Positions 4,140 through 59,880 of a DNA stretch of 64,000 bases are shown one piece after another. Below the pieces are notes generated by a model. It saw only the letters and a program-made list of their open reading frames with translations, did no database searches and was not told the DNA's origin. The translations under genes were made by a program, and so were the position numbers. The stretch's first letter is position 1, and every line of letters begins with the position of its first letter. Source of the stretch: Ruminococcus sp. NK3A76 (GTDB taxonomy: Bacteria > Bacillota > Clostridia > Oscillospirales > Ruminococcaceae); contig NZ_JMMA01000002.1 of NCBI RefSeq assembly GCF_000686125.1, positions 868,001 to 932,000 on the forward strand. The letters are read 5' to 3'.

Positions 4140-4162
4140 ATTGATTTGCTCCTTTCAATTTT

Positions 4163-4337
4163 AAGGCAATACCACACGACCAATGTGTGTCAGATACGCA
4201 GACAGATTTTTCGTCAGATCACCTGAATTTGACGCAGGCGGGCTACCGCCCGGCAAGGAGAATTTGGGCGATATGACGGAAAATATGCAAGCAGATGACA
4301 TACAAAGGCGCAGCCGGTGGTCGTGCGGTGTTGCCTT
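4163..4337. repeat. MITE-like repeat element, copy 1
   Basis: 175 bp bounded by AAGGCAATACCACACGACC on the left and its near inverse GTCGTGCGGTGTTGCCTT on the right. The interior carries TTTTTCGTCAGAT and a downstream ATATGACGGAAAATATGCAAG, so the element can fold into one long imperfect hairpin. It has no coding capacity. It lies between the T-box terminator and trpE and so is part of the trpE 5' UTR. Same family as the copies at 25500, 27219, 55540 and 56535; closest in sequence to the 27219 copy. Confidence 0.9.
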
Positions 4338-4345
4338 AGGGCAAT

Positions 4346-4625
4346 AAAAAAAGCCCTAACGCCTATAGCAGACTGCTATGGGACGATAGAACCGTGGTGC
4401 CACCCAAATTCCGGCACTTAAAGTGCCGCTCAACCGAGTACTTGTTGTTAATGTATGCATTAACAGCGCCATACCCTCTCACACTAACGTAGGAATACAC
4501 GGCGAGTGATACTCACAAAACGCTTTCACACCGCTCCTCACAAATCCATTCACACTTGCCGCCTATGTATCGGCATCACACCGCCGCCGACTCTCTGAAA
4601 CACTCTTGCAAGGCTACTTACCTTT
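4346..4625 (-). promoter_or_regulatory. T-box leader of the trp operon, tRNA-Trp specifier
   Basis: On the minus strand the T-box core GGGTGGCACCACG (4393-4405) is followed by TCGTCCC, as in the standard antiterminator, and then by a hairpin ending in seven T residues (4346-4352), the terminator. Upstream lie an AGAGAG bulge and a GGTGTGATG distal-loop motif, and then GAATGGA, in which TGG (4546-4548) sits where T-boxes carry the specifier codon after GAA. It therefore reads as a tRNA-Trp sensor that fits trpE-trpS-trpGD downstream. The specifier assignment is by motif position, not by a computed fold. Confidence 0.93.
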
Positions 4626-4660
4626 GCTCACAGGATTTTAAAAATATTAACTTTAAACCT

Positions 4661-4781: not shown

Positions 4782-4843
4782 AAAATATGTATAGTTCGTT
4801 TTTGGCTTTGTGAAGCTGGTCAGACACCGGACGCCTTTGCAAT

Positions 4844-5085
4844 GCACAATTATAATGCAGAATTAAGAATGCATAATGCATAATTGTGATGTCGTGTCTT
4901 ATCGGCAAAGCCGATAAGAAGAAAGTTTTGCTTTGCAAAACATTTCCCTGCGGCGTATTATGCCCATTCGGGCGTTTCTTTCCGGCGGCTTGGCTTAAGA
5001 TCGTCAGGTTGACAGGCCGAATGGCCATAAGTCCGCCAAAGGCGGACACCGCAACTGTTAACTGTTAACTGTAAACTGTTAGCTT
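4844..5085. repeat. Heptamer-ended palindromic element with unlike arms (ATGCATA / AACTGTT)
   Basis: The left arm (4844-4887) is a degenerate run of 7-nt units ending CATAATG CATAATT G. The right arm (5053-5081) is AACTGTT AACTGTT AACTGTA AACTGTT followed by AGC. Next to the left arm is a hairpin with TCTTATCGGC/GCCGATAAGA; next to the right arm is the hairpin GTCCGCCAAAGGCGGAC followed by ACC. The overall plan matches the elements at 14114, 35627 and 38564, but here the two arms are of different heptamer types. No gene was recognised in this stretch. Confidence 0.75.
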
Positions 5086-6425: not shown

Positions 6426-6517
6426 TAAAAGAATAAAGAATTAATAAGAAATAACAATAGAGGTACCGGCTGCGCCGATGATATTCAACATCATCTGACG
6501 CAAGTCGGTATCTTTTT
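6426..6517 (+). repeat. Heptamer half-element joined to a terminator-like hairpin
   Basis: Period-7 units AAGAATA AAGAATT AATAAGA AATAACA run into TAGAGGTACCGG. This is followed by a long hairpin (GGTACCGGCTGCGC... pairing with ...GCAAGTCGGTATC) and a T-run at 6511-6516. It closes the AI-2E permease transcript and resembles the left half of the elements at 35627 and 38564. Confidence 0.65.
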
Positions 6518-6640: not shown

Positions 6641-7897
6641 ATGCTTAAAAGATCATTGGCATTTACTCTTTCGCTGCTCGTTGCAGCGGTATGCTTTGCA
6701 GGGTGCGGCAACGGCTCGTCGTCAGATGCAGCATCGGGTGACAGCACATCATCATCTGCTGAGAGCCAGACAGACAGCACCTCAGGCGGCGACAGCTCGA
6801 CAGCAGACAGCACAGACGGCTCCTCGACAGAGGAGAAGACCCACCCCGAGGCATCGCTTACTATCGACGGCGAAAAGGTCGATACATCTGACCTCATTAT
6901 GCTCACAGTTGACGGCATAGATATCGACTTTGATACATTCAGATATTACTACTACTATGTGCTCAACGTATACAGCCTGACACCTGACACTGTTACAGAG
7001 GACGTTTTCCCTGATGTGCTCAGCAACACGGTGAACCAGCTCAAGCAGGAATTCGTGACCCACAAGATAGCAAGGGAAGAAAAGATAGAGCTCGACGAGG
7101 AAGACAAAAAGAATATCGAGAATGATATAAGCACTATCAAGGGCCAGTATGAATCCGAGGAGGCTTTCGTTGAGGGCATGAAGGATTACTACCTCACAGA
7201 AGACGTGCTCAGGTCAATGGAGGAGATGACAGCTCTTTACCAGAAGGTATATGCTAAGGTGCTCACACACGACGGCAAGTATGCTATCAAGGAAAAGGAT
7301 TTCAGAAAGCTGCTAAAGGACAAGGACAACTACGCAAGAGTAAAGCATATCCTCATTCCTTACTACTCGCAGGCAGAGCTTGACGACGAGACACAGAAGC
7401 AGTTTGACTCGCTTGACCTTGCATCAAAGAACGGCCTCAAACAGCAGGCATACCAGCAGCTCAACGACGCTGACCAGGAAAAGTGCCAGAAAGCAGCAAA
7501 GAAGGTCGCTGACGAAGTTCTTCAGAAGGTCAAGGACGGCGAGGATTTTGACAAGCTGATAAAGGAATACGGCTGGGATTCCGGCATGGAAATGGAGTCT
7601 TCAAAGGACGGCTACTTCGTGACACCTGATACCAAGTTCGTTCAGGAATTCAAGGATGCTTCATTCAAGCTCAAAGAGGGCGAGTATACCGAGGAGCTCG
7701 TGGTCAATCAAAGCTACGGCTACTTCATCATAAAGCGTCTGCCGTTTGATGATGAATATGTTGATGCTCACATCGACTCGATGAAGGAGGAGTACGACAA
7801 GGCCAACATCAAGTCGCTCTACAACGAGCTCATGGAGGAAATGGACGTAAAGCTCTCCGACACATACAGCAAGCTCACATATCAGAGCATAAAGTAA
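6641..7897 (+). CDS. PrsA-like foldase lipoprotein (PpiC-type peptidyl-prolyl isomerase)
   Basis: A 418-residue lipoprotein. The start ATG at 6641 is chosen because GAAAGGA lies 10 nt upstream and it opens a classic signal peptide with the lipobox FAGC (Cys22). A low-complexity Ser/Thr/Asp linker follows to about residue 70. The SurA-like N-terminal helical part is followed by a parvulin domain, about 245-385, with RVKHILI, VLQKVKDGEDFDKLIKEYG, and GYFV...FKLKEGE...SYGYFIIK. It likely folds secreted proteins on the outer face of the membrane. It is monocistronic with a strong terminator. Confidence 0.9.
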   Translation: MLKRSLAFTLSLLVAAVCFAGCGNGSSSDAASGDSTSSSAESQTDSTSGGDSSTADSTDGSSTEEKTHPEASLTIDGEKVDTSDLIMLTVDGIDIDFDTFRYYYYYVLNVYSLTPDTVTEDVFPDVLSNTVNQLKQEFVTHKIAREEKIELDEEDKKNIENDISTIKGQYESEEAFVEGMKDYYLTEDVLRSMEEMTALYQKVYAKVLTHDGKYAIKEKDFRKLLKDKDNYARVKHILIPYYSQAELDDETQKQFDSLDLASKNGLKQQAYQQLNDADQEKCQKAAKKVADEVLQKVKDGEDFDKLIKEYGWDSGMEMESSKDGYFVTPDTKFVQEFKDASFKLKEGEYTEELVVNQSYGYFIIKRLPFDDEYVDAHIDSMKEEYDKANIKSLYNELMEEMDVKLSDTYSKLTYQSIK

Positions 7898-12256: not shown

Positions 12257-12280
12257 GAGCCGGCTCCTTTCATGGTGTGT

Positions 12281-12397
12281 ATACCGTGTATAGTGCATAC
12301 TGTGTATAGTGCATACTGTGTATAGTGCATACTGTGTATAGTGCATACTGTGTATGCCGTATATATACAGTATACACTATATTACTTTGTTTGTCAA
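12281..12397 (-). promoter_or_regulatory. Promoter and 16-bp tandem operator array of the GntR-ABC operon
   Basis: The minus-strand promoter is TTGACA (12392-12397), 17 bp, TATACT (12369-12374). Immediately downstream are five 16-bp units (plus-strand reading ATACTGTGTATAGTGC; 12281-12360), three of them identical and the two outer ones diverged. The -10 region itself contains the palindrome AGTGTATACT, related to the repeat unit. Regularly phased sites just below the start point suggest cooperative GntR repression. Confidence 0.8.
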
Positions 12398-14113: not shown

Positions 14114-14325
14114 ATTTCAGGTAACAGGTTACAGGTAACAGGTAACAGGTGAGGTATGCGGCTGCGCCGCATATATGCCCATTCGAGCAATGTCAGGCAA
14201 ACAATACTCAATACAATAAGCAACACCCCGAGGTCACACAAAAACCTCGGGGTGTAGTTTTTTATGATCCTTCCGCCGAAGGCGGACTCCTTACCTGTAA
14301 CCTGTAACCTGTTACCTGTTAGCTT
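14114..14325. repeat. Heptamer-ended palindromic element (CAGGTAA type) enclosing a terminator
   Basis: The left arm (14117-14150) is CAGGTAA CAGGTTA CAGGTAA CAGGTAA CAGGTGA; the right arm (14288-14320) is its inverse (TTACCTG TAACCTG TAACCTG TTACCTG) followed by TTAGC. Inside, next to the left arm, are GAGGTATG and the hairpin GCGGCTGCGCCGC. Next to the right arm is TCCGCCGAAGGCGGA followed by CTCC. A rho-independent terminator sits in the middle. It separates leuB from the convergent alkD-like gene. Confidence 0.88.
14224..14262. terminator. Terminator inside the heptamer element, between convergent genes
   Basis: CACCCCGAGGT and ACCTCGGGGTG form the stem, with TTTTTT after it on the plus strand. 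It ends leuB transcription. Confidence 0.9.
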
Positions 14326-15033: not shown

Positions 15034-15963
15034 TTATTTTATGTTTCTCTCCATAAAGTCTATCACCGACTGCTCGTCCTTGCGGTCAAAGCTGTCAGCG
15101 CAGGGGCTTAAGCTCCAGTGCTCGGTGTGGGTGATAGTCTCATCCGGCTCCAGCTCATAAAGAGGGCTCAAAGACTCTATCTCCATCATAAAGAAGTTTG
15201 TGAAGCACTCGCAGTTGCAGCCGTTGTCGGGATACTCGGCACCCTCGATGTATTCAAACCTCTTTGTGAAAAGCTGCCCCTTGTTATACATTGCCATGTA
15301 GCCCTTGTCGTCATTGAAGCCGAGCTTGAAGTTTGCCTTGCAGTCATCAGACTGCTTGATGGTTATGTACTTGTTGCCGAACATCAGCCTGTCGTCATGC
15401 ATATCGCTGTAAGGCCATACCGTGTAGGTGCGGTTTGGCAGCAGGCCTGTTTGCTTGTCGCACTGGGGGAGTATCGCTATGCTGTCGTGGTCTACAACAG
15501 TCATCGCCCAAACGGCGATCTTCTGCATCTCGTCGCCTGTGTTCTTTATCGTGTGGGTAGCGGTGATGTTGCTGCTTGTCTCGTCAAAATCAAGTATCAG
15601 TTCAAACTGAAAGCCTGTCTCATACTGCTCGGGCGGCGTGAATATGAATCTGCTGCCCTCCTGCCTTACTATTACAGGGTCGTTGTCGGGGTAGTAGCTC
15701 TTGGGGTCATGCTCAGGCGAGAACCATATCCTGTGGCCGCCGTAGATGAACCACTTCTTGTCGCCGAAGACCTCGGCATATCTTCCGCCCGACATGGTCG
15801 AGTGCTCGTTTATGTCTTCGCCCATGATGTTTTCCATGCCGCTGCATTTTAAGGATATCACACGGGGACCCTTGTCAACAGTGATGAGCGCTTCTATGCT
15901 CTCGTTGCTCACCTTAAGGCACCTGCCGAAATATCCGTAGTCGATGTACTCATGCTTTAACAT
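15034..15963 (-). CDS. Galactose-mutarotase-fold protein (DUF4380-like)
   Basis: 309 residues of mostly beta structure with the layout of an aldose-1-epimerase-like supersandwich: GPRVISLKCSGMENIMGED near the N terminus, GGHRIWFSPE, TATHTIKN in the middle, and VWAMTVVDHDS. It resembles DUF4380-type proteins of unknown substrate. It starts 4 nt after tmcAL stops and ends 27 nt before alkD, so the three are one transcript. A sugar-handling role is inferred from the fold only. Confidence 0.7.
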   Translation of the reverse strand: MLKHEYIDYGYFGRCLKVSNESIEALITVDKGPRVISLKCSGMENIMGEDINEHSTMSGGRYAEVFGDKKWFIYGGHRIWFSPEHDPKSYYPDNDPVIVRQEGSRFIFTPPEQYETGFQFELILDFDETSSNITATHTIKNTGDEMQKIAVWAMTVVDHDSIAILPQCDKQTGLLPNRTYTVWPYSDMHDDRLMFGNKYITIKQSDDCKANFKLGFNDDKGYMAMYNKGQLFTKRFEYIEGAEYPDNGCNCECFTNFFMMEIESLSPLYELEPDETITHTEHWSLSPCADSFDRKDEQSVIDFMERNIK

Positions 15964-15967
15964 TTTT

Positions 15968-17119
15968 CTACTCCCTTTCTATGGTTATCTTTCTTGTGTA
16001 TTCGTTTATGCAGTCCTGCTCTCTGTCAGTGCAGAGATAGCGGAAATATGAAGCCTTGATGATGTTCTGTACAATATTTGGTACCCTTTCCTCTATCCTT
16101 GCAAGCGAGGTGTCAAAGAGCACGCTGCTATCCTTTGCCTTAGCTAAAAGCTCAGTGCCACGCTTGTTGAATGCGAGGACCCTTGCAGCATCAAGCCCGT
16201 CAGGGGAGATGCTTTCAAGCCCTGCCGAGAGATAAACGGATATCCGCCTCAGCCTTGCAAGCGTCACGCCCTTGGTCTTTAATGATATGTAAAGCTCCTC
16301 CAGTGTCGAGGGGGCGCTCTTTCGCATTTTCATGATGCTTTCAAGTATCTGTGTGTTTATGTCGGGGCAAGACTTAAGCGTCTGCTCGTCTGCGGTGCAG
16401 AGGGTAAAGAGAATGTGCGTCTCCATTCTGCCTATGAATGCAGGCTGCTCGTTTGTCATATCAAGCAGGGTGAGTGATGAAACGTCAAGCTCTTTTCTGA
16501 GCATCTTGCGTATAGTGCCTGCTGCGGCATAGCTGCCTACAATATCTCCGCTGCCGTGGTCGGTGCCTTTGCGCTTTATGGCTATGAATTCATTTATCCC
16601 GAGCGCTCTTGCGGCCTTGATGTATTCAACAGCAAGCGTTGCATTCGGCTGCGAGAAGACTTCTACGAATTTCTTGCCGTATTTTCTCTCGATAACGAGC
16701 GACACAGCCCTCGGGTAGCTAAGCCCGTCTGCGGTTATGGCGGCAACGTCGGGGTCGTTTTCAAGGTCTAAGGATATGTCTGCGCATTCGGAAAGCAGCT
16801 GTGCGTCATCGATCTCCGAGCCGAAGGCTATGCAGTCAGCACCGGCGGCCTTTAAAAGCCTTACAGCCCCCTGTGCGAACACCTGCGAGCAGGAGCAGCA
16901 AAAAGGCGGCGGCAGCTCGACAACAAGGTCGGCACCGTTGTTTACAGCACACTGCGCCCTTGACTGCTTGTCGGCAACGGCAACATCGCCCCTCTGGGTA
17001 AGGTCGCCGCTCATGGCGCAGACTATATGCGTGATGCCTTTTTTCCTGACACTTTCAAGAAGATACCTGTGCCCGTTGTGGAACGGGTCGAATTCACATA
17101 CTATTCCTGCACAATGCAT
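15968..17119 (-). CDS. tmcAL: tRNA(Met) cytidine acetate ligase
   Basis: A 383-residue YlbM-type nucleotidyltransferase that uses acetate and ATP to make N4-acetylcytidine at the wobble base of elongator tRNA-Met. The N-terminal CEFDPFHNGHRYLL holds the HxGH-type motif. MSGDLTQRGD and VELPPPFCC follow, then the family's helical C-terminal half. The ATG at 17119 is chosen because it opens directly on the conserved AGIVCEFDPFHNGH and has AAGGTCGGTG upstream; an in-frame extension to 17188 looks non-coding. It heads an operon with the mutarotase-fold and AlkD-like genes. Confidence 0.92.
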   Translation of the reverse strand: MHCAGIVCEFDPFHNGHRYLLESVRKKGITHIVCAMSGDLTQRGDVAVADKQSRAQCAVNNGADLVVELPPPFCCSCSQVFAQGAVRLLKAAGADCIAFGSEIDDAQLLSECADISLDLENDPDVAAITADGLSYPRAVSLVIERKYGKKFVEVFSQPNATLAVEYIKAARALGINEFIAIKRKGTDHGSGDIVGSYAAAGTIRKMLRKELDVSSLTLLDMTNEQPAFIGRMETHILFTLCTADEQTLKSCPDINTQILESIMKMRKSAPSTLEELYISLKTKGVTLARLRRISVYLSAGLESISPDGLDAARVLAFNKRGTELLAKAKDSSVLFDTSLARIEERVPNIVQNIIKASYFRYLCTDREQDCINEYTRKITIERE

Positions 17120-18584: not shown

Positions 18585-18596
18585 TGGTGGCTTTTG

Positions 18597-18677
18597 AGGT
18601 ATCGTCTGCGGAAATGATTTTATAATCCGTCCGCCGCAAGGCGGACACCTCAATTATGCATTATGCATTATGCATTG
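18597..18677. repeat. Heptamer element, right half (ATGCATT type)
   Basis: GAGGTATCG (18597-18605) is followed by GTCCGCCGCAAGGCGGACACCTC and then the period-7 run AATTATG CATTATG CATTATG CATTGAT. The left heptamer arm is missing. Confidence 0.75.
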
Positions 18678-25472: not shown

Positions 25473-25499
25473 TTTTCTCCTTCCGCCGTGGCGGTATTA

Positions 25500-25675
25500 A
25501 AGGCAACACCGCACAAAGACCGCCTGAAGGCTTTGTACGCAACTCACTTGCATCTTTTCCGTCATATTACACATTTTTTCCTTGAAATACGGTAGTATTC
25601 CTTCGGAAAATCTGTGCAATCTGACGAAAAAGCTGACTGCGCAATTTGCGCACAATCTTCGTGCGGTGTTGCCTA
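25500..25675. repeat. MITE-like repeat element, copy 2
   Basis: 176 bp, with terminal inverted repeats AAGGCAACACCGCACAAAGA and TCTTCGTGCGGTGTTGCCT (one mismatch in 19). Inner arms CCGTCATATTACACATTTTTTCC and its imperfect inverse give a long hairpin; only short parts are quoted here. It is almost identical to the copy at 56535 and in the opposite orientation to the copies at 4163 and 27219. Confidence 0.92.
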
Positions 25676-25714
25676 AATATAAGTTGTGCGGCGGCCTTTT
25701 CCGCCGCTATACAT

Positions 25715-27202: not shown

Positions 27203-27218
27203 TCTTTCTTTTTTGTTT

Positions 27219-27393
27219 AGGTAATACCGCACAACCATTGTACGTCAGATACACAGTCAAATTTTTCGTCAGATTGCCTAAATTTTCCGCAGGCTTGCTG
27301 GCGCAAGTCAAGGAAAATTTGGGTAATATGACGGGAAATTTGCAAGTAGATGGCGTACAAAGGCTGGGGCCGGTGGTTGTGCGGTGTTGCCTT
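27219..27393. repeat. MITE-like repeat element, copy 3
   Basis: 175 bp from AGGTAATACCGCACAACC to GGTTGTGCGGTGTTGCCTT. It contains the family cores TTTTTCGTCAGATT and ATATGACGGGAAATTTGCAAG, in the same orientation as copy 1. It fills most of the gap between the divergent spoVAD and queH genes. Confidence 0.9.
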
Positions 27394-27426
27394 TATTATG
27401 GTAAAAACAGCTGTGATTATTCAAGC

Positions 27427-32293: not shown

Positions 32294-32769
32294 TGATGCG
32301 TATAGGTCACGGTTACGATGTACACAGACTTGTTACGGGCAGAAAGCTCATTTTGGGCGGCGTCGATATCCCTTACGAAAAGGGGCTTGACGGCCACAGC
32401 GATGCTGACGTGCTCGTTCATGCGATAATGGATTCGCTTCTCGGCGCTCTCGCACTCGGCGACATCGGCAGGCATTTCCCCGACACCGACCCTGCATACA
32501 AGGGTGCTGACAGCATAGAGCTTTTAAAAAGGGTGAGGGAGATAATAGCCGGCCAGGGCTATACAGTCGGCAACATCGACAGCACTGTCTGCGCCCAGCG
32601 CCCCAAGCTCGCACCGTTTATAGCAGCAATGCGTGAGAATATTGCCGCAGCTCTTGACATAGACATCTCGCAGGTTTCTGTCAAGGCGACCACCGAAGAA
32701 AAGCTCGGGTTTACCGGCGAGGGCTTAGGCATAAGTGCAACGGCGGTATGCCTGTTGCTTCGCAGGTAA
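32290..32769 (+). CDS. ispF: 2-C-methyl-D-erythritol 2,4-cyclodiphosphate synthase
   Basis: 159 residues: [11 protein letters not shown] with the metal ligands D and [22 protein letters not shown], and [17 protein letters not shown] near the C terminus. It makes the cyclic diphosphate in the MEP isoprenoid pathway. It overlaps pheA by 4 bp (ATGA). Its last codons and TAA come from a CAGGTAACAGG heptamer remnant, so the C-terminal end may have been set by an element. Confidence 0.97.
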
Positions 32770-32798
32770 CAGGTGATGTGTCCGCTGTCGGCGGACGT
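32764..32798. repeat. Remnant of a heptamer element at the ispF 3' end
   Basis: CAGGTAACAGGTGATG followed by GTCCGCTGTCGGCGGAC. It is a shortened relative of the CAGGTAA-type elements at 14114 and 34316. Confidence 0.55.
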
Positions 32799-34315: not shown

Positions 34316-34380
34316 ATTTCAGGTAACAGGTAATAGGTAACAGGTAACAGCTGAGGTATCGCCTGCGGTGTTGCCTTAAA
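34316..34380. repeat. Heptamer half-element (CAGGTAA type) fused to a MITE end
   Basis: CAGGTAA CAGGTAA TAGGTAA CAGGTAA CAGCTGA is followed by GGTATCGCC and then by TGCGGTGTTGCCTTA (34364-34378), which matches the terminal repeat of the MITE-like family. It suggests recombination or insertion between the two repeat families. Confidence 0.65.
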
Positions 34381-34592: not shown

Positions 34593-35510
34593 ATGAAAAC
34601 CAAAGTATTACTTGCTCTGCTTGCGGCTGTGCTGCTGACATCATGCGGCGAGAGCAGCTCATCAGACAGTAAAAAGGATAGCAGCAGCGTGCAGACCACA
34701 GCATCTGCGGCTGAGAGCGACAACACCGCTGCTGCTGCGGCAGGATCTGACCCTGAACCCGAGCCCGAGCCGGCAGCTGACACGCAGGCCGACAGGGAGA
34801 CTATCTATCAGGTATCGCTGCTGCAGGGGCTTACCCTTGGCGACTACAACGGCAGCGTGAGCGTTGCTGACCTGAAAGCCAACGGCGACACGGGCATAGG
34901 CACATTTGACGGGCTCAACGGTGAGCTTATCATGTCAGACGGTGTGGTATACAGAGGGCTTTCAGACGGCTCGGTCGAGGTCGTTGCCGATGACGAGACT
35001 ATCCCCTTTGCAAACGTTACTTTCTTTGACGCAGACGAGCAGGAGGACGTAAGCGGTATAGCCACCATAGCTGATATCAAGGCTCTGCTCGATGAAAGAG
35101 TTGAAAAGCTCGGCAAGAACAGCTTCTACATGGTAAAGATAGAGGGCACTTTCAACAAGGTACACGCACGCAGCGAGCTTAAGCAGGAAAAGCCCTACAA
35201 GCCGCTTGCCAAGGTGCTGGAGACCGACCAGAGGGAGTTTGAGTGGGAGAATATCGAGGGCACAGTCGTTGCGCTCTACTGCCCTGAGTATATGAAGGAT
35301 CTGAACGCTGCCGGCTGGCATCTGCACTTTATCTCAAGCGACAAGACAAAGGGCGGCCACGTCCTTGATGTTGATATCAACTCTGCAAAGCTGAGTATCG
35401 ACCCGACACAGGGCTACAATATGCAGCTGCCTGAGACAGAGATGTTCCCGACACTTGATCTTACAAAGGATCAGTCGGAGGACATAAAGAAGGTCGAGAC
35501 TAAAGACTGA
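34593..35510 (+). CDS. Alpha-acetolactate decarboxylase, predicted lipoprotein
   Basis: 305 residues. A lipoprotein signal peptide ends at LLTSC (Cys18), followed by a Ser/Ala/Glu-Pro-rich linker to about residue 65. The rest is a full acetolactate decarboxylase: YQVSLLQGLTLGDYNGSVS, GDTGIGTFDGLNGE, PFANVTFFD, KIEGTF, QEKPYKPLAKV, and the zinc ligands in GWHLHFIS and GGHVLD. The reaction is acetolactate to acetoin. Being anchored outside the membrane is notable, as most homologues are cytoplasmic. It is monocistronic, with no alsS nearby. Confidence 0.88.
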   Translation: MKTKVLLALLAAVLLTSCGESSSSDSKKDSSSVQTTASAAESDNTAAAAAGSDPEPEPEPAADTQADRETIYQVSLLQGLTLGDYNGSVSVADLKANGDTGIGTFDGLNGELIMSDGVVYRGLSDGSVEVVADDETIPFANVTFFDADEQEDVSGIATIADIKALLDERVEKLGKNSFYMVKIEGTFNKVHARSELKQEKPYKPLAKVLETDQREFEWENIEGTVVALYCPEYMKDLNAAGWHLHFISSDKTKGGHVLDVDINSAKLSIDPTQGYNMQLPETEMFPTLDLTKDQSEDIKKVETKD

Positions 35511-35626: not shown

Positions 35627-35787
35627 GCTAAAAGAAAAAAGAAGAAAGAATAAATAAGAAATAATAATCAAGGTATCGTGTCTTATCGGCAAAAGCCGAT
35701 AAGACACGATATATTTTGAAATATGTCCGCAAAGCGGACACCTTGTTTATTCTTTATTCTTTCTTCTTTATTATTTATTCTTTTAGC
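35627..35787. repeat. Complete heptamer-ended palindromic element (GAATAAA type)
   Basis: The best specimen of the family. It has GCTAA at the left end and TTAGC at the right. The left arm has period-7 units (AAGAAAG AATAAAT AAGAAAT AATAATC); the right arm is TTTATTC TTTATTC TTTCTTC TTTATTA TTTATTC. Inner left: AAGGTATCG and the hairpin GTCTTATCGGC/GCCGATAAGAC. Inner right: GTCCGCAAAGCGGAC then ACCTT. About 161 bp, no coding capacity. Confidence 0.85.
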
Positions 35788-36979: not shown

Positions 36980-38563
36980 ATGGCAAAGAAAAAACCCGTA
37001 ATTTTAGTAGTAATGGACGGTGTAGGCATCTCCGTGACAGGTCTTGGCGACGCTGTTACCGAGGCTAACACCCCCACACTTGACAGACTCAAGGCAGAGT
37101 GCCCCTATACAACGCTTAAGGCTCACGGCGGCGCAGTTGGTCTGCCCTCTGATGACGATATGGGTAACTCTGAGGTCGGCCACAATGCTTTAGGCTGCGG
37201 CCAGATCTACTCTCAGGGTGCAAAGCTCGTTAACGAGAGCATCGAGAGCGGCAAGATGTTCGCTTCCGACACATGGAAGACCCTTATCGAGAATGTCAAG
37301 AGCAAGGGCACTACTCTCCACTTCTTAGGCCTTCTCTCTGACGGTAATGTTCACTCGAATATCCACCACCTCGAAAAGATGCTCGCAAAGGCTAAGGAGG
37401 AGGGCGTCAAGACTGTAAGATGCCACATTCTCCTTGACGGACGTGACGTTCCTGCAACAAGTGCTCCCGTTTATATCAAGGAGCTTGAAGACTGCATCGC
37501 AGCTCTTAACGACGGCAGCTTTGACGCTCAGATAGCTTCCGGCGGCGGCAGAATGAAGATAACTATGGACAGATATCAGGCTGACTGGGGCATGGTAGAA
37601 AAGGGCTGGAACACACACGTTCACGGCGATGCAAGACAGTTTGCAAACGCTCTTGAAGCTGTTGACACACTCAGAAATGAGACAGGCGCTATAGATCAGG
37701 ATCTTCCTGAGTTCGTTATCGCTAAGGACGGCAAGCCCGTAGGCGCTATGCAGGACGGCGACAGCGTTGTTCTCTTCAACTTCCGCGGCGACAGAGCAAT
37801 AGAAATATCTATGGCATTCGACGGCGGCGATGAGTTTAACAGCTTTGACAGAGGCACTATCCCGGACGTTATATATGCAGGTATGCTCGAATACGACGGC
37901 GACCTTAAGATCCCCAAGAGATATCTTGTGAATCCGCCTGAGATAAAGAACACACTCTCCGAGCTGCTCGTTAATGCTGGCCTTTACTCCTATGCTGTTT
38001 CCGAAACTCAGAAGTACGGCCACGTTACATACTTCTGGAACGGCAACCGTTCCGAGCGCTTTGACGAGGAGCTTGAAACATGGAAGGAGATACCCTCTGA
38101 CAAGGTATCCTTCGACGAGAGACCGTGGATGAAGTCCGCTGAGATAACTGATGACCTTATCGAAGCTATCAAGGCTGACAAGTATGACTTCATCAGATGC
38201 AACTACCCGAACGGCGACATGGTAGGCCACACAGGCTCTATGGACGCAACTATCATCGGCGTTGAGAGCGTTGACCTCCAGCTTGCAAGACTTCTCAAAG
38301 TTGCAGACGAGTATGACTGCACAGTTCTTATCACAGCTGACCACGGCAACGCTGACGAGATGCTTGAAAAGAACAAGAAGGGCGAGATCCAGGTAAGAAC
38401 AGCTCACTCTCTTAACAGAGTTCCTTTCTATATCGTAAGCAAGGACAAGTATGTTATCAAGGACGCAGAGTCTACAAAGTACGGCCTTGCAAACGTTGCA
38501 CCTACAGTTGCAAAGATCTTAGGTCTTACACCTCCCGACTGCTGGGAAGAGTCCATGATATAA
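36980..38563 (+). CDS. gpmI: Phosphoglycerate mutase, 2,3-bisphosphoglycerate-independent
   Basis: 527 residues of the alkaline-phosphatase superfamily: VVMDGVGIS with the first metal Asp, DDDMGNSEVGHNALG containing the phosphorylated Ser, LDGRDVPATS, YGHVTYFWNGN, NYPNGDMVGHTG, and TADHGNAD plus AHSLNRVPF near the end. It interconverts 3- and 2-phosphoglycerate using Mn2+. It is 42 bp after the damaged DUF4177 gene and about 240 bp after tpiA. Confidence 0.97.
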   Translation: MAKKKPVILVVMDGVGISVTGLGDAVTEANTPTLDRLKAECPYTTLKAHGGAVGLPSDDDMGNSEVGHNALGCGQIYSQGAKLVNESIESGKMFASDTWKTLIENVKSKGTTLHFLGLLSDGNVHSNIHHLEKMLAKAKEEGVKTVRCHILLDGRDVPATSAPVYIKELEDCIAALNDGSFDAQIASGGGRMKITMDRYQADWGMVEKGWNTHVHGDARQFANALEAVDTLRNETGAIDQDLPEFVIAKDGKPVGAMQDGDSVVLFNFRGDRAIEISMAFDGGDEFNSFDRGTIPDVIYAGMLEYDGDLKIPKRYLVNPPEIKNTLSELLVNAGLYSYAVSETQKYGHVTYFWNGNRSERFDEELETWKEIPSDKVSFDERPWMKSAEITDDLIEAIKADKYDFIRCNYPNGDMVGHTGSMDATIIGVESVDLQLARLLKVADEYDCTVLITADHGNADEMLEKNKKGEIQVRTAHSLNRVPFYIVSKDKYVIKDAESTKYGLANVAPTVAKILGLTPPDCWEESMI

Positions 38564-38763
38564 CAATGCATAATGCAAAATGCATAATGCATAATTGTGG
38601 TGCGCCCTTCGGGCGGATCATAAAAGCGGCTGCGCCGCAAATCAATAATTCTCAATTATAAAAGCAACCCCCGAGGAACTTGTAATCCCTCGGGGGCTAT
38701 TTTTTAAATCCGTCCTGCGCAGCAGGACACCTTAATTATGAATTATGCATTATGCATTATTAG
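38564..38763. repeat. Heptamer-ended palindromic element (ATGCATA type) enclosing a terminator
   Basis: It begins directly after the gpmI stop. The left arm is ATGCATA ATGCAAA ATGCATA ATGCATA ATTG; the right arm is TTAATTA TGAATTA TGCATTA TGCATTA TTAG. Inner hairpins are GCGCCCTTCGGGCG, GCGGCTGCGCCGC and GTCCTGCGCAGCAGGAC followed by ACCTT. The right arm encodes the last residues and stop codon of the convergent FAD-oxidoreductase gene. Confidence 0.88.
38667..38705. terminator. Bidirectional terminator inside the element
   Basis: CCCCCGAGG and CCTCGGGGG stem, TATTTTTT on the plus strand. It separates gpmI from the convergent gene. Confidence 0.9.
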
Positions 38764-55474: not shown

Positions 55475-55539
55475 TTACAATTTGGTATAAATTTATAAAA
55501 AAACACCCCTTTGCATGATACAAAGAGGCAGTTGCTATT

Positions 55540-55736
55540 AAGGCAACACCGCCGGGCCACCGGCCAATGCCTTTGTATGCCATCTACTTGCAAATTTTTA
55601 TGTCATATCACCCAAATACTCCTTGTCTTGCGTCAGCAAAACTTCGTCGCATTTGGGCAATCTGACGAAAAATTTGACGTTTCAGCTTTGCTGAAACAAT
55701 GTATACTGACATACAATGGTCGTGCGGTATTGCCTT
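55540..55736. repeat. MITE-like repeat element, copy 4 (longest)
   Basis: 197 bp from AAGGCAACACCG to CGTGCGGTATTGCCTT, flanked on both sides by TTAA-like sequence. Family cores CAATCTGACGAAAAATTTGACG and ACTTGCAAATTTTTATGTCATAT are both present; an extra small hairpin, CAGCTTTGCTG, accounts for its length. The last two bases contribute to the stop codon of the lipoprotein gene. Confidence 0.9.
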
Positions 55737-56448
55737 AAAATGTCAGGCTTTGCGCAAAGGCCGTCAGCTCGTCAAGGGTCGTGTCCTTGGTTATCGAGCT
55801 TATCTCGGCTCTGAAACCGTCGGGGGTGAGTACATCGACAGTGTATTCAAAGTATATGCTCTCGGTGAAGTGCTCTATCACGGCGCTGTCGGTGATGTCT
55901 ATCCAGTCACGGGTCAGGTCTGTCGTATCTGCTGATACCTTGTCGTAGAGCGACTGTAAGCTGTCGTATCTGTTATCAAGCATTATTACGACAGAGAACG
56001 TCCTGTTAGTGTCGGGGGAGTTTATGTCGCCCTTTACCATGCCGCAGTTGATGCTCGTAAGATTTGCTGCACCGCCCATGTCGCTGACACCCTCGGGGCA
56101 CTTAGGGATAAGCCTTGACTTGTCAGCGCCGTACCTGCTCTCGTAGTATGCGCCCCAGACTGACTTCCCGATGTCCTGACAGTTGGTGAAGGTCTCGTAA
56201 TCCTGCACCCACTCGTCGCTGTTCTGCTCTTTCTGTTTCTCGACCTCAAATGGGTCTACCTTCGTGTCGGTGTATTCATAGCTCTGCGGCTGCTCTGTTT
56301 CTGCCGCCGATGAGCTTTCCCTGCCTGCTGTCGCCTGTGCTGCCGATGAGCTCTCGGCAGTCTTGCCTGTCTCCTGTGAGCTTATATCATCGCCGCACCC
56401 TGTCAGCAGCACAGCCGCCGCCAAAAGGGCAAGTATATTCCTTTTCAT
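55735..56448 (-). CDS. Predicted lipoprotein of unknown function
   Basis: 237 residues. ATG 56448 is behind AAGGAG and begins a lipoprotein signal peptide ending LLTGC (Cys18). A Ser/Ala/Glu-rich linker follows to about 60, then an alpha/beta domain with FTNCQDIGKSVWGAYYESRYG and two cysteines. Not recognised. The gene is flanked by two MITE-like copies (55540 and 56535), and its stop codon TAA is made from the end of the first, so the C terminus may have been cut or altered by the insertion. Confidence 0.75.
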   Translation of the reverse strand: MKRNILALLAAAVLLTGCGDDISSQETGKTAESSSAAQATAGRESSSAAETEQPQSYEYTDTKVDPFEVEKQKEQNSDEWVQDYETFTNCQDIGKSVWGAYYESRYGADKSRLIPKCPEGVSDMGGAANLTSINCGMVKGDINSPDTNRTFSVVIMLDNRYDSLQSLYDKVSADTTDLTRDWIDITDSAVIEHFTESIYFEYTVDVLTPDGFRAEISSITKDTTLDELTAFAQSLTF

Positions 56449-56534
56449 ATTGTTCTCCTTGTTTTGTTCTTTTTCTACGGCAATATTATAGCACACAGAA
56501 AATGATATGTCAACAGCGAATAATGCAGATATAT

Positions 56535-56708
56535 AGGCAACACTGCACAAAGACCGCCTGAAGGCTTTGTACGCAACTTACTTGCATCTTTTCCGTCATA
56601 TTACACATTTTTTCCTTGAAATACGGTAGTATTCCTTCGGAAAATCTGTGCAATCTGACGAAAAAGCTGACTGCGCAATTTGCGCACAATCTTCGTGCGG
56701 TGTTGCCT
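56535..56708. repeat. MITE-like repeat element, copy 5
   Basis: 174 bp, nearly identical to the copy at 25500 (only a few substitutions), flanked by TATA on both sides. It lies between the lipoprotein gene start and the end of the second mgtE. Confidence 0.92.
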
Positions 56709-56752
56709 ATAAAGAAAGAACAGACAGCCCGAAGACTGCCTGCTTGTATACT

Positions 56753-59805: not shown

Positions 59806-59880
59806 AAAAACAAAAGAGGTATCGCATCTTATCAGTATTTGCCGATAAGATACGATACCTTAATAATTTATTATTATAGT
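59806..59880. repeat. Small heptamer-element relative with a long hairpin
   Basis: AAAGAGGTATCG then a hairpin of ATCTTATC...GATAAGAT type closing to CGATACCTT, then an AT-rich arm. Its hairpin closely matches those at 4893-4919 and 35680-35710. It lies between convergent genes and can serve as a terminator. Confidence 0.65.

Follow-up and report, generated by a model that had tools for sequence, protein, structure and literature searches.

What kind of element lies at positions 35627-35787 of the 64,000-nucleotide stretch of the Ruminococcus sp. NK3A76 genome analysed here (the window), where tandem heptamers on one side face their own complement on the other? A period-7 scan, palindrome analysis and folding identify on the forward strand a complete element with AAAGAAT-type heptamers that lacks the S23 gene discussed below. 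Its left arm is a period-7 array (35631-35667) and its right arm an inverted period-7 array (35742-35783), both located by array scan, and the arms are complementary to each other over 34 nt at 85%. Between them, on the same strand, lie a left core, AAGGTATCG (35670-35678), an inner hairpin found by folding, TATCGTGTCTTATCGGC..GCCGATAAGACACGATA (35674-35711), and a right core, GTCCGCAAAGCGGACACCTT (35725-35744); AAGG at 35670 also pairs with CCTT near 35741. The predicted fold has an energy of -70.9 kcal/mol, compared with a mean of -23.4 (sd 3.6) for 200 shuffled sequences (z -13.1), none of which folds as well. Thus, the array scan, the pairing and the z score bear out the palindrome with complementary period-7 arms described in the original prediction. 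As a whole, that observation is partly confirmed. The inner cores, which had been read as mutually complementary, are not simply so because they form two independent hairpins, with GTCCGCAAAGCGGAC (35725-35739) making one and TATCGTGTCTTATCGGC..GCCGATAAGACACGATA a separate second, and the proposed GCTAA..TTAGC ends are not a family feature, as the element at 14114 carries TTAGC on the right only.

Related elements are present elsewhere on the forward strand of the window. Two are complete and enclose a terminator-like hairpin, one with CAGGTAA arms (14114-14325) and one with AATGCAT arms (38561-38762, the 38564 element), and a hybrid has a left AATGCAT arm and a right AACTGTT arm (4841-5084, the 4844 element). 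The remainder are partial: a left array plus a GAGGTACCG palindrome with no right array (6426-6515), cores plus a right ATTATGC array with the left arm missing (18596-18677, the 18597 element), a left half with a CAGGTAA array (34316-34380), a core palindrome, GAGGTATCG..CGATACCTT, whose A/T arms are weak (59806-59880), and a half-element, CAGGTAACAGGTGATGTGTCCGC.. (32763-32797), that had previously been overlooked. Of the at least eight sites proposed originally, all hold related elements, but matching heptamer arms on two sides occur only at 35627, 14114 and 38564. The proposal that the heptamer varies while the plan is kept holds both between elements and at the same site in sister species. 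An Rfam scan of the window returned a single match, to a T-box, and no family that fits the elements; five NK3A76 element loci likewise have no Rfam match.

The family extends well beyond the window. In 464 kb of the NK3A76 genome (the window plus 20 segments of 20 kb, or 13% of the total), we found 30 period-7 arrays, compared with 0, 2, 1 and 1 arrays of periods 8, 9, 10 and 11. Periods 6, 12 and 15 gave 8 arrays each, as coding DNA would. The excess of period 7 over its neighbours indicates that the periodicity is real. Two copies at different places (L003 and L009) are 95.6% alike over 205 columns, or 91% over 240 under other settings. A core pattern, GCGGACACCTYA, yielded 69 matches with at most one mismatch compared with 47 for a reversed control, and for this reason it was used only for fetching loci.

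Several other features share this DNA. Window positions 4158-4338, 25495-25682, 27203-27398, 55537-55741 and 56531-56724 hold copies of a different palindromic repeat, which is ~190 bp long and has ends resembling AAGGCAAYACCRCAC..GTGCGGTGTTGCCTT. This second family is probably another MITE, and the half-element at 34316 runs into one of its ends. The T-box leader (RF00230) lies at 4376-4640 on the reverse strand, and a 16-bp tandem array of GTGCATACTGTGTATA occupies 12277-12355 in 4.9 copies. An open reading frame at 34593-35510, between the 34316 half-element and the main element, is missing at this site in the congeners G148 and G152 and has no relative among viral contigs. Nested composites of 400-600 bp (L175:17370-17930; L176:3800-4230, 6650-7195 and 15595-16190), in which two types of heptamer arm enclose common GC-rich hairpin modules, have no obvious gene and no Rfam match.

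A point missed by the original prediction is that complete elements carry a gene. This gene encodes PF05635, a four-helix-bundle protein called ‘S23’ or 23S rRNA IVP and related to the Avd protein of diversity-generating retroelements (DGRs). The protein is also assigned to TIGR02436, and a match to NF033474 (Avd) is present but falls under the profile cut-off. All four PF05635 genes of the NK3A76 genome adjoin period-7 arrays: two have arms on both sides (L031 and L032), and two (L033 and L034), each just 3′ of a tRNA gene, have an inverted array pair upstream. Across the genus, 11 such genes occur in six of seven genomes, and all 11 adjoin period-7 arrays (one, L266, as scored by eye). The complete form, as seen in L031, L032 and others, consists of an array of about five heptamer boxes, a core, the PF05635 gene, a second core and an inverted array, totalling ~0.5 kb, and the cores are hairpins in this genus.

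On both the left and the right, the end cores of L031 and L032 are similar to those of the window elements. On the 5′ side of S23, both loci share AAGGTATCGGCGC..GCGCCGAT and also the AAGGTATCGG.. of the 35627 left core; on the 3′ side, L032 has GTCTGCC..GGCGGACACCTC, which resembles the 35627 right core, and L031 has the variant ATCCGCC..GGCGGATACATC. Because these end cores are held in common, we infer that the window elements, none of which carries the gene, are derivatives of S23 elements that lack S23. The sequence at 35627-35787 therefore looks like a gene-less member of a mobile family whose complete copies include a small-protein gene. The sole congener with no PF05635 match (G113) also has the fewest matches to a query of the element plus genes (3 versus 6-89). 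Such matches are not simply tied to S23 number, as G150 has 81 matches and one S23 gene and G152 has 25 and three, although completeness is only 58-81% for four of the six congener assemblies.

The association between S23 genes and heptamer arrays is not confined to this genus. Among public loci, represented by the best 80 of 582 confirmed S23 loci and therefore biased toward the S23 proteins of this genome, period-7 arrays occur in 113 of 160 near flanks (151 of them full length) but in only 7 of 138 flanks located 1 kb away. In the same near flanks, periods 4-6 and 9-13 are absent, period 8 appears twice (both at the A/T-rich locus L130), period 14 appears 13 times and period 15 once. Arrays are present on either side at 66 of these 80 loci and on both sides at 47, and in 44 of the 47 pairs the heptamers are inverted copies at six or more of seven positions (30 at 7/7 and 14 at 6/7). 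When 12 of the 14 loci below the array threshold were inspected by eye, 10 had heptamer-like units and two (L109 and L132) had other repeats. The array score threshold was 13 for these 80 loci (flank counts, arms and heptamers) and for the stop-codon distances given below, 12 for the 464-kb scan, the genus, the viral and plasmid loci and the pooled set, and 11 for loci L031-L060 and the Y1 transposase loci; arrays of shorter period were filtered out of the period scan of the best 80 loci and of the 464-kb scan.

Other collections give a similar picture to differing degrees. A family-level search found an S23 match in 19 of 148 genomes, and the 30 loci retained (L031-L060, four of them from NK3A76) have arrays on both sides in 8 cases, on one side in 4 and, at the threshold used, on neither in 16, with L033 and L034 carrying the upstream pair. 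Arrays accompany 10 of 11 viral S23 loci from IMG/VR (both sides at 7; L205 and L208 share one contig) and 13 of the 14 plasmid S23 loci fetched from 26 records (both sides at 11); 12 of these 14 are cyanobacterial, the others being from Treponema and Bernardetia. Pooling gave 121 loci, of which 103 have an array on either side and 76 on both. The pool leaves out 12 of the loci L031-L060, most of which are short, degraded or lack a placement, as well as L203, whose arms are those of L202, and L215, which nearly duplicates L214. According to record titles and taxonomy lines, S23 loci with arrays come from Clostridia, Bacteroidales, Prevotella, Opitutales, Pyrinomonadaceae, Ignavibacteriae, Treponema and cyanobacteria, which we take to represent about seven phyla. 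Twenty array-poor S23 loci scanned with Rfam contain no rRNA; tRNAs are found at seven of them (L041, L043, L048, L049, L106, L108 and L138). At two other loci (L220 and L221), on Nostoc and Anabaena plasmids, the S23 element sits between cas2 and cas1; IVP genes in cas loci have been noted before (PMC3936711).

Comparison of orthologous sites bears on whether these elements move. At the L032 site of NK3A76, TAA is followed by AACAGTTAAC..S23..AACTATTATC and then AAGGAGC, and in G148 only ACGCAGA separates TAA from AAGGAGC, leaving a clean empty site. An element occupies the L265 site in G152, with a terminator-like hairpin on one side and a ribosome site on the other; the site is cleanly empty in G150 and NK3A76. 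The element of L031 is missing from G151, leaves array remnants in G148 and is represented by single near-heptamers in G152. At 14114, G148 and G151 are empty, G152 lacks the left half and has a CAGTTAA-type right heptamer, synteny is lost in G113 (no element) and G149 (another half-element), and in G150 the interior is inverted, a second point not made originally. The 34316 site has CAGGTAA in NK3A76, an AATGCAC half in G148 and nothing in G152; the 32763 site is empty in G148 and G152; and the 38564 site is empty in G148 and holds an element with an interrupted right arm in G150.

The empty sites, the inverted interior and the heptamer differences at a single site point to mobility. The empty orthologous sites thus support the original interpretation of scattered elements that look mobile, sit at the 3′ ends of genes and vary in their heptamer, and are not what vertical descent alone, with non-periodic arms, would give. 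Neither of the two clean empty sites (L032 and L265), as compared across species, shows a target duplication, and they therefore indicate no particular transposition chemistry. Their targets also contain no copy of the element's heptamer. In Nostoc plasmids, a DNA cytosine methyltransferase gene is broken by an S23 element that takes the place of ~320 bp. Three empty Nostoc relatives (L223-L225) have at position 687, the left junction, one CAATTCG, the element's own heptamer, and a fourth (L227) has none; a second Nostoc comparison (L217 versus L272, L273 and L275) was too unclean and was left out.

The arms themselves have a preferred size. In the best 80 of 582 loci, arm length peaks at 32 nt (34 of 113 arrays exactly, 55 of 113 at 31-33 nt), as it does in a larger arm set (37 of 179 exactly), and 32 nt corresponds to five 4-nt boxes joined by four 3-nt spacers. 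Pooled arms have five boxes in 90 of 152 cases, and the 62 with another number include 20 with four and 19 with six. The two arms of one locus match as inverted copies at six or more of seven positions in 65 of 76 loci and as direct copies in 15 of 76, compared with 115 inverted matches among 1502 comparisons between loci. The heptamer forms the outer arm of the element rather than the variable tip that was originally envisioned.

The reading that we favor, with as much doubt as conviction, is that the window elements belong to a mobile family but lack its gene, and that an S23 pentamer binds an arm and mobilizes such copies in trans. Solved relatives in the PDB (2RLD, E 4e-53; 2GSC, E 0.001) have five chains each, and by analogy S23 itself may be a homopentamer. 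Because five subunits would face five boxes, so far a numerical match, we propose that the homopentamer binds one arm, either as a single strand or as a hairpin, with one subunit per 7-nt repeat. A precedent for such counting is TRAP, an 11-mer ring that binds 11 spaced RNA triplets. Once bound, S23 would flag the element to be copied or moved by a catalyst acting in trans, and copies without the gene would be mobilized by S23 made elsewhere. Because repeat units would be kept alike by slippage and by hairpin-mediated copying from one arm to the other, their letters could drift while the protein holds pitch, number and complementarity. Several results count against this reading: 62 of 152 pooled arms deviate from five boxes, the box numbers of the two arms are not clearly coupled, 14 of the best 80 loci and 16 of the loci L031-L060 have no array above threshold, and matches to the element query do not simply track S23 number.

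The same arms might instead be explained with no binding role at all, which we consider unlikely although it is the strongest competitor. The S23-heptamer element would be real, but its arms would be old tandem inverted repeats maintained by slippage and palindrome correction, the period of 7 would be inherited by descent, and S23 would be a selfish passenger, as in rRNA intervening sequences (IVSs). Both replication slippage and template switching at hairpins are well established, and sequence drift is indeed free, with 53 distinct heptamers among the 113 arrays of the best 80 of 582 loci. Heptamers share ~4.0 of 7 letters when S23 identity is below 60%, 5.2 at 70-80% (91 pairs), 6.0 at 80-90% (21 pairs) and 7.0 at 90% or more (3 pairs). 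Because likeness rises only among close S23 relatives, the letters turn over fast and the pitch does not. Such tracking counts in favor of the S23-binding reading, but it is also expected if the element is inherited as one unit, and several close S23 pairs look by eye like one orthologous insertion site. Differences between arms also carry no mark of selection for RNA pairing, with 18 G·U-compatible and 28 A·C changes (p 0.18). Moreover, a function as stop codons in all frames, an idea that arose from the listed heptamers of this genome, all of which have an inward-strand stop, is unsupported, since 38 of the 53 heptamers have such a stop compared with 39.4 (sd 2.7) after letter shuffling; on the reverse strand, stops occur in 15 of 53 versus 21.8 in shuffles (70 of 5000 as low). 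Against an account free of binding stand the strict 7-nt pitch across widely different bacteria despite randomized sequence, the arm-length peak at 32 nt and a strand asymmetry of the arms (77 G and 29 C on the upstream strand over the 53 heptamers). The two arms of the Nostoc plasmid locus L226 are each one unit shorter, which suggested concerted arm length, but this is not clear over 76 loci: box numbers are equal in 34 of 76 (shuffled mean 29.3, maximum 40), and left and right arm lengths have a Spearman correlation of 0.19 (p 0.096).

An improbable alternative is that the element acts between cistrons as RNA, with the arms forming a long mRNA stem that is cut by RNase III like that of a 23S rRNA IVS, with S23 or the stem controlling message processing, and with location after a stop codon reflecting function. 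The strong folds and the IVS precedent (PMC4990558) are consistent with this view, as is the placement of the 45 two-arm S23 elements whose flanks are long enough to score: in 43, a co-directional open reading frame ends near the left arm, in 35 its stop codon is within 10 nt of the element start, and 34 of the 45 lie between co-directional frames, as measured with mechanically called frames of at least 80 codons and without a random control. However, an insertion into a short intergenic gap is near a stop codon in any case, several copies in the window are half-elements lacking a partner arm, and the arm differences have no G·U preference, which leaves the RNA-level role suggested originally without support from them; the original interpretation is, as a whole, partly supported.

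Although the elements are short, palindromic and dispersed and the NK3A76 genome has two Y1 transposase genes with open frames, it is very improbable that they are REP/RAYT-type or other MITEs that owe their mobility to a Y1 or other transposase gene located elsewhere, S23 being a bystander, since three of the four Y1 match loci (the fourth being the other piece of a broken gene) were scanned and have no period-7 array and no end-core pair (one lone GTCCGCC in L261), the gene found between arms is S23, and target duplication is not seen at the L032 and L265 empty sites. A reverse transcriptase was likewise considered as a partner and set aside, as there is no array in the loci scanned. The only reverse transcriptase match in the NK3A76 genome (L264, G000:C2:2826910-2827539) has RT_UG26 as its best PADLOC match.

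Returning to binding by an S23 pentamer, we raise more tentatively the possibility that these elements form a separate class whose ends are recognized by geometry rather than sequence, the pentamer counting five repeats at a 7-nt pitch. Every lineage could then drift to its own heptamer because repeats would be counted by pitch, an unusual form of end recognition for mobile DNA. If so, the heptamer repeats of cyanobacteria, Beggiatoaceae and gut bacteria would be footprints of one element class, and rRNA IVSs would be its rRNA-resident members.

Among known systems, MITEs, REP/REPIN sequences and BIMEs are short, dispersed, palindromic and free of open reading frames. The window elements resemble MITEs in their terminal inverted repeats, dispersed copies and lack of an open reading frame. 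Unlike MITEs, REPs, REPINs and BIMEs, however, their ends are alike in period and not in sequence; unlike MITEs, they lack target duplication at the two clean empty sites, and the gene between the arms encodes S23 and not a transposase. Unlike those of REP/RAYT systems, the three Y1 match loci scanned are not flanked by the repeats and have no arrays. The ends of the window elements match those of the S23 element. DGRs use a related four-helix-bundle protein, Avd, which works with a reverse transcriptase and a template RNA (PMC12875486, PMC10053308), but the S23 gene nearest to the sole reverse transcriptase match in NK3A76 is 158 kb away. Four-helix genes are also described in Arthrospira and Flavobacterium (PMC8700078, PMC5524665).

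Heptamer repeats have been described in other settings. The TAACTGA repeats of Beggiatoaceae are similarly intergenic, with 2-6 units and a patchy phylogeny, and a binding protein has been sought (MacGregor 2015, PMC4679880). They differ in having one fixed heptamer, with S1, Csp and CsrA as candidate binders, and a term search of the accessible text of that paper found no S23, 23S, intervening sequence or four helix. Cyanobacterial STRRs, whose function is called unknown (PMC2670836), are likewise tandem 7-nt repeats in intergenic DNA, and the P6b region of the Nostoc trnL intron has 7-nt units and complementary stem arms, and heptamer classes there have replaced one another repeatedly (PMC4476775). 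In the portions of these two papers available to us, there is no link to S23; here, period-7 arrays flank all but one of the 12 S23 genes fetched from cyanobacterial plasmids (11 of 12), which lends support to the connection with cyanobacterial heptamer repeats drawn in the original prediction.

Another close comparison is with the IVSs of 23S rRNA that carry an S23 open reading frame, such as the 428-nt IVS of Coxiella, whose inverted terminal repeats form a 28-bp stem and whose origin and function, as for rRNA IVSs generally, are called unclear in the accessible text of the source (PMC4990558); the IVP protein of rRNA insertions in CPR bacteria is similarly called functionally uncharacterized (PMC11270868). 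The PF05635 family, a similar size and terminal inverted repeats that can fold into a stem are common to both. IVSs lie within rRNA genes, whereas the elements described here lie mostly between protein genes, have arms made of heptamer arrays and, in this genus, exist in many copies with no open reading frame. We found no paper linking S23 with heptamer repeats in open-access full text, although one may exist elsewhere, and the association of S23 with period-7 arrays is a new result of this study. An S23 gene between inverted heptamer arms, found in widely different bacteria, links the IVS, IVP and STRR puzzles in a way that can be tested by one binding assay.
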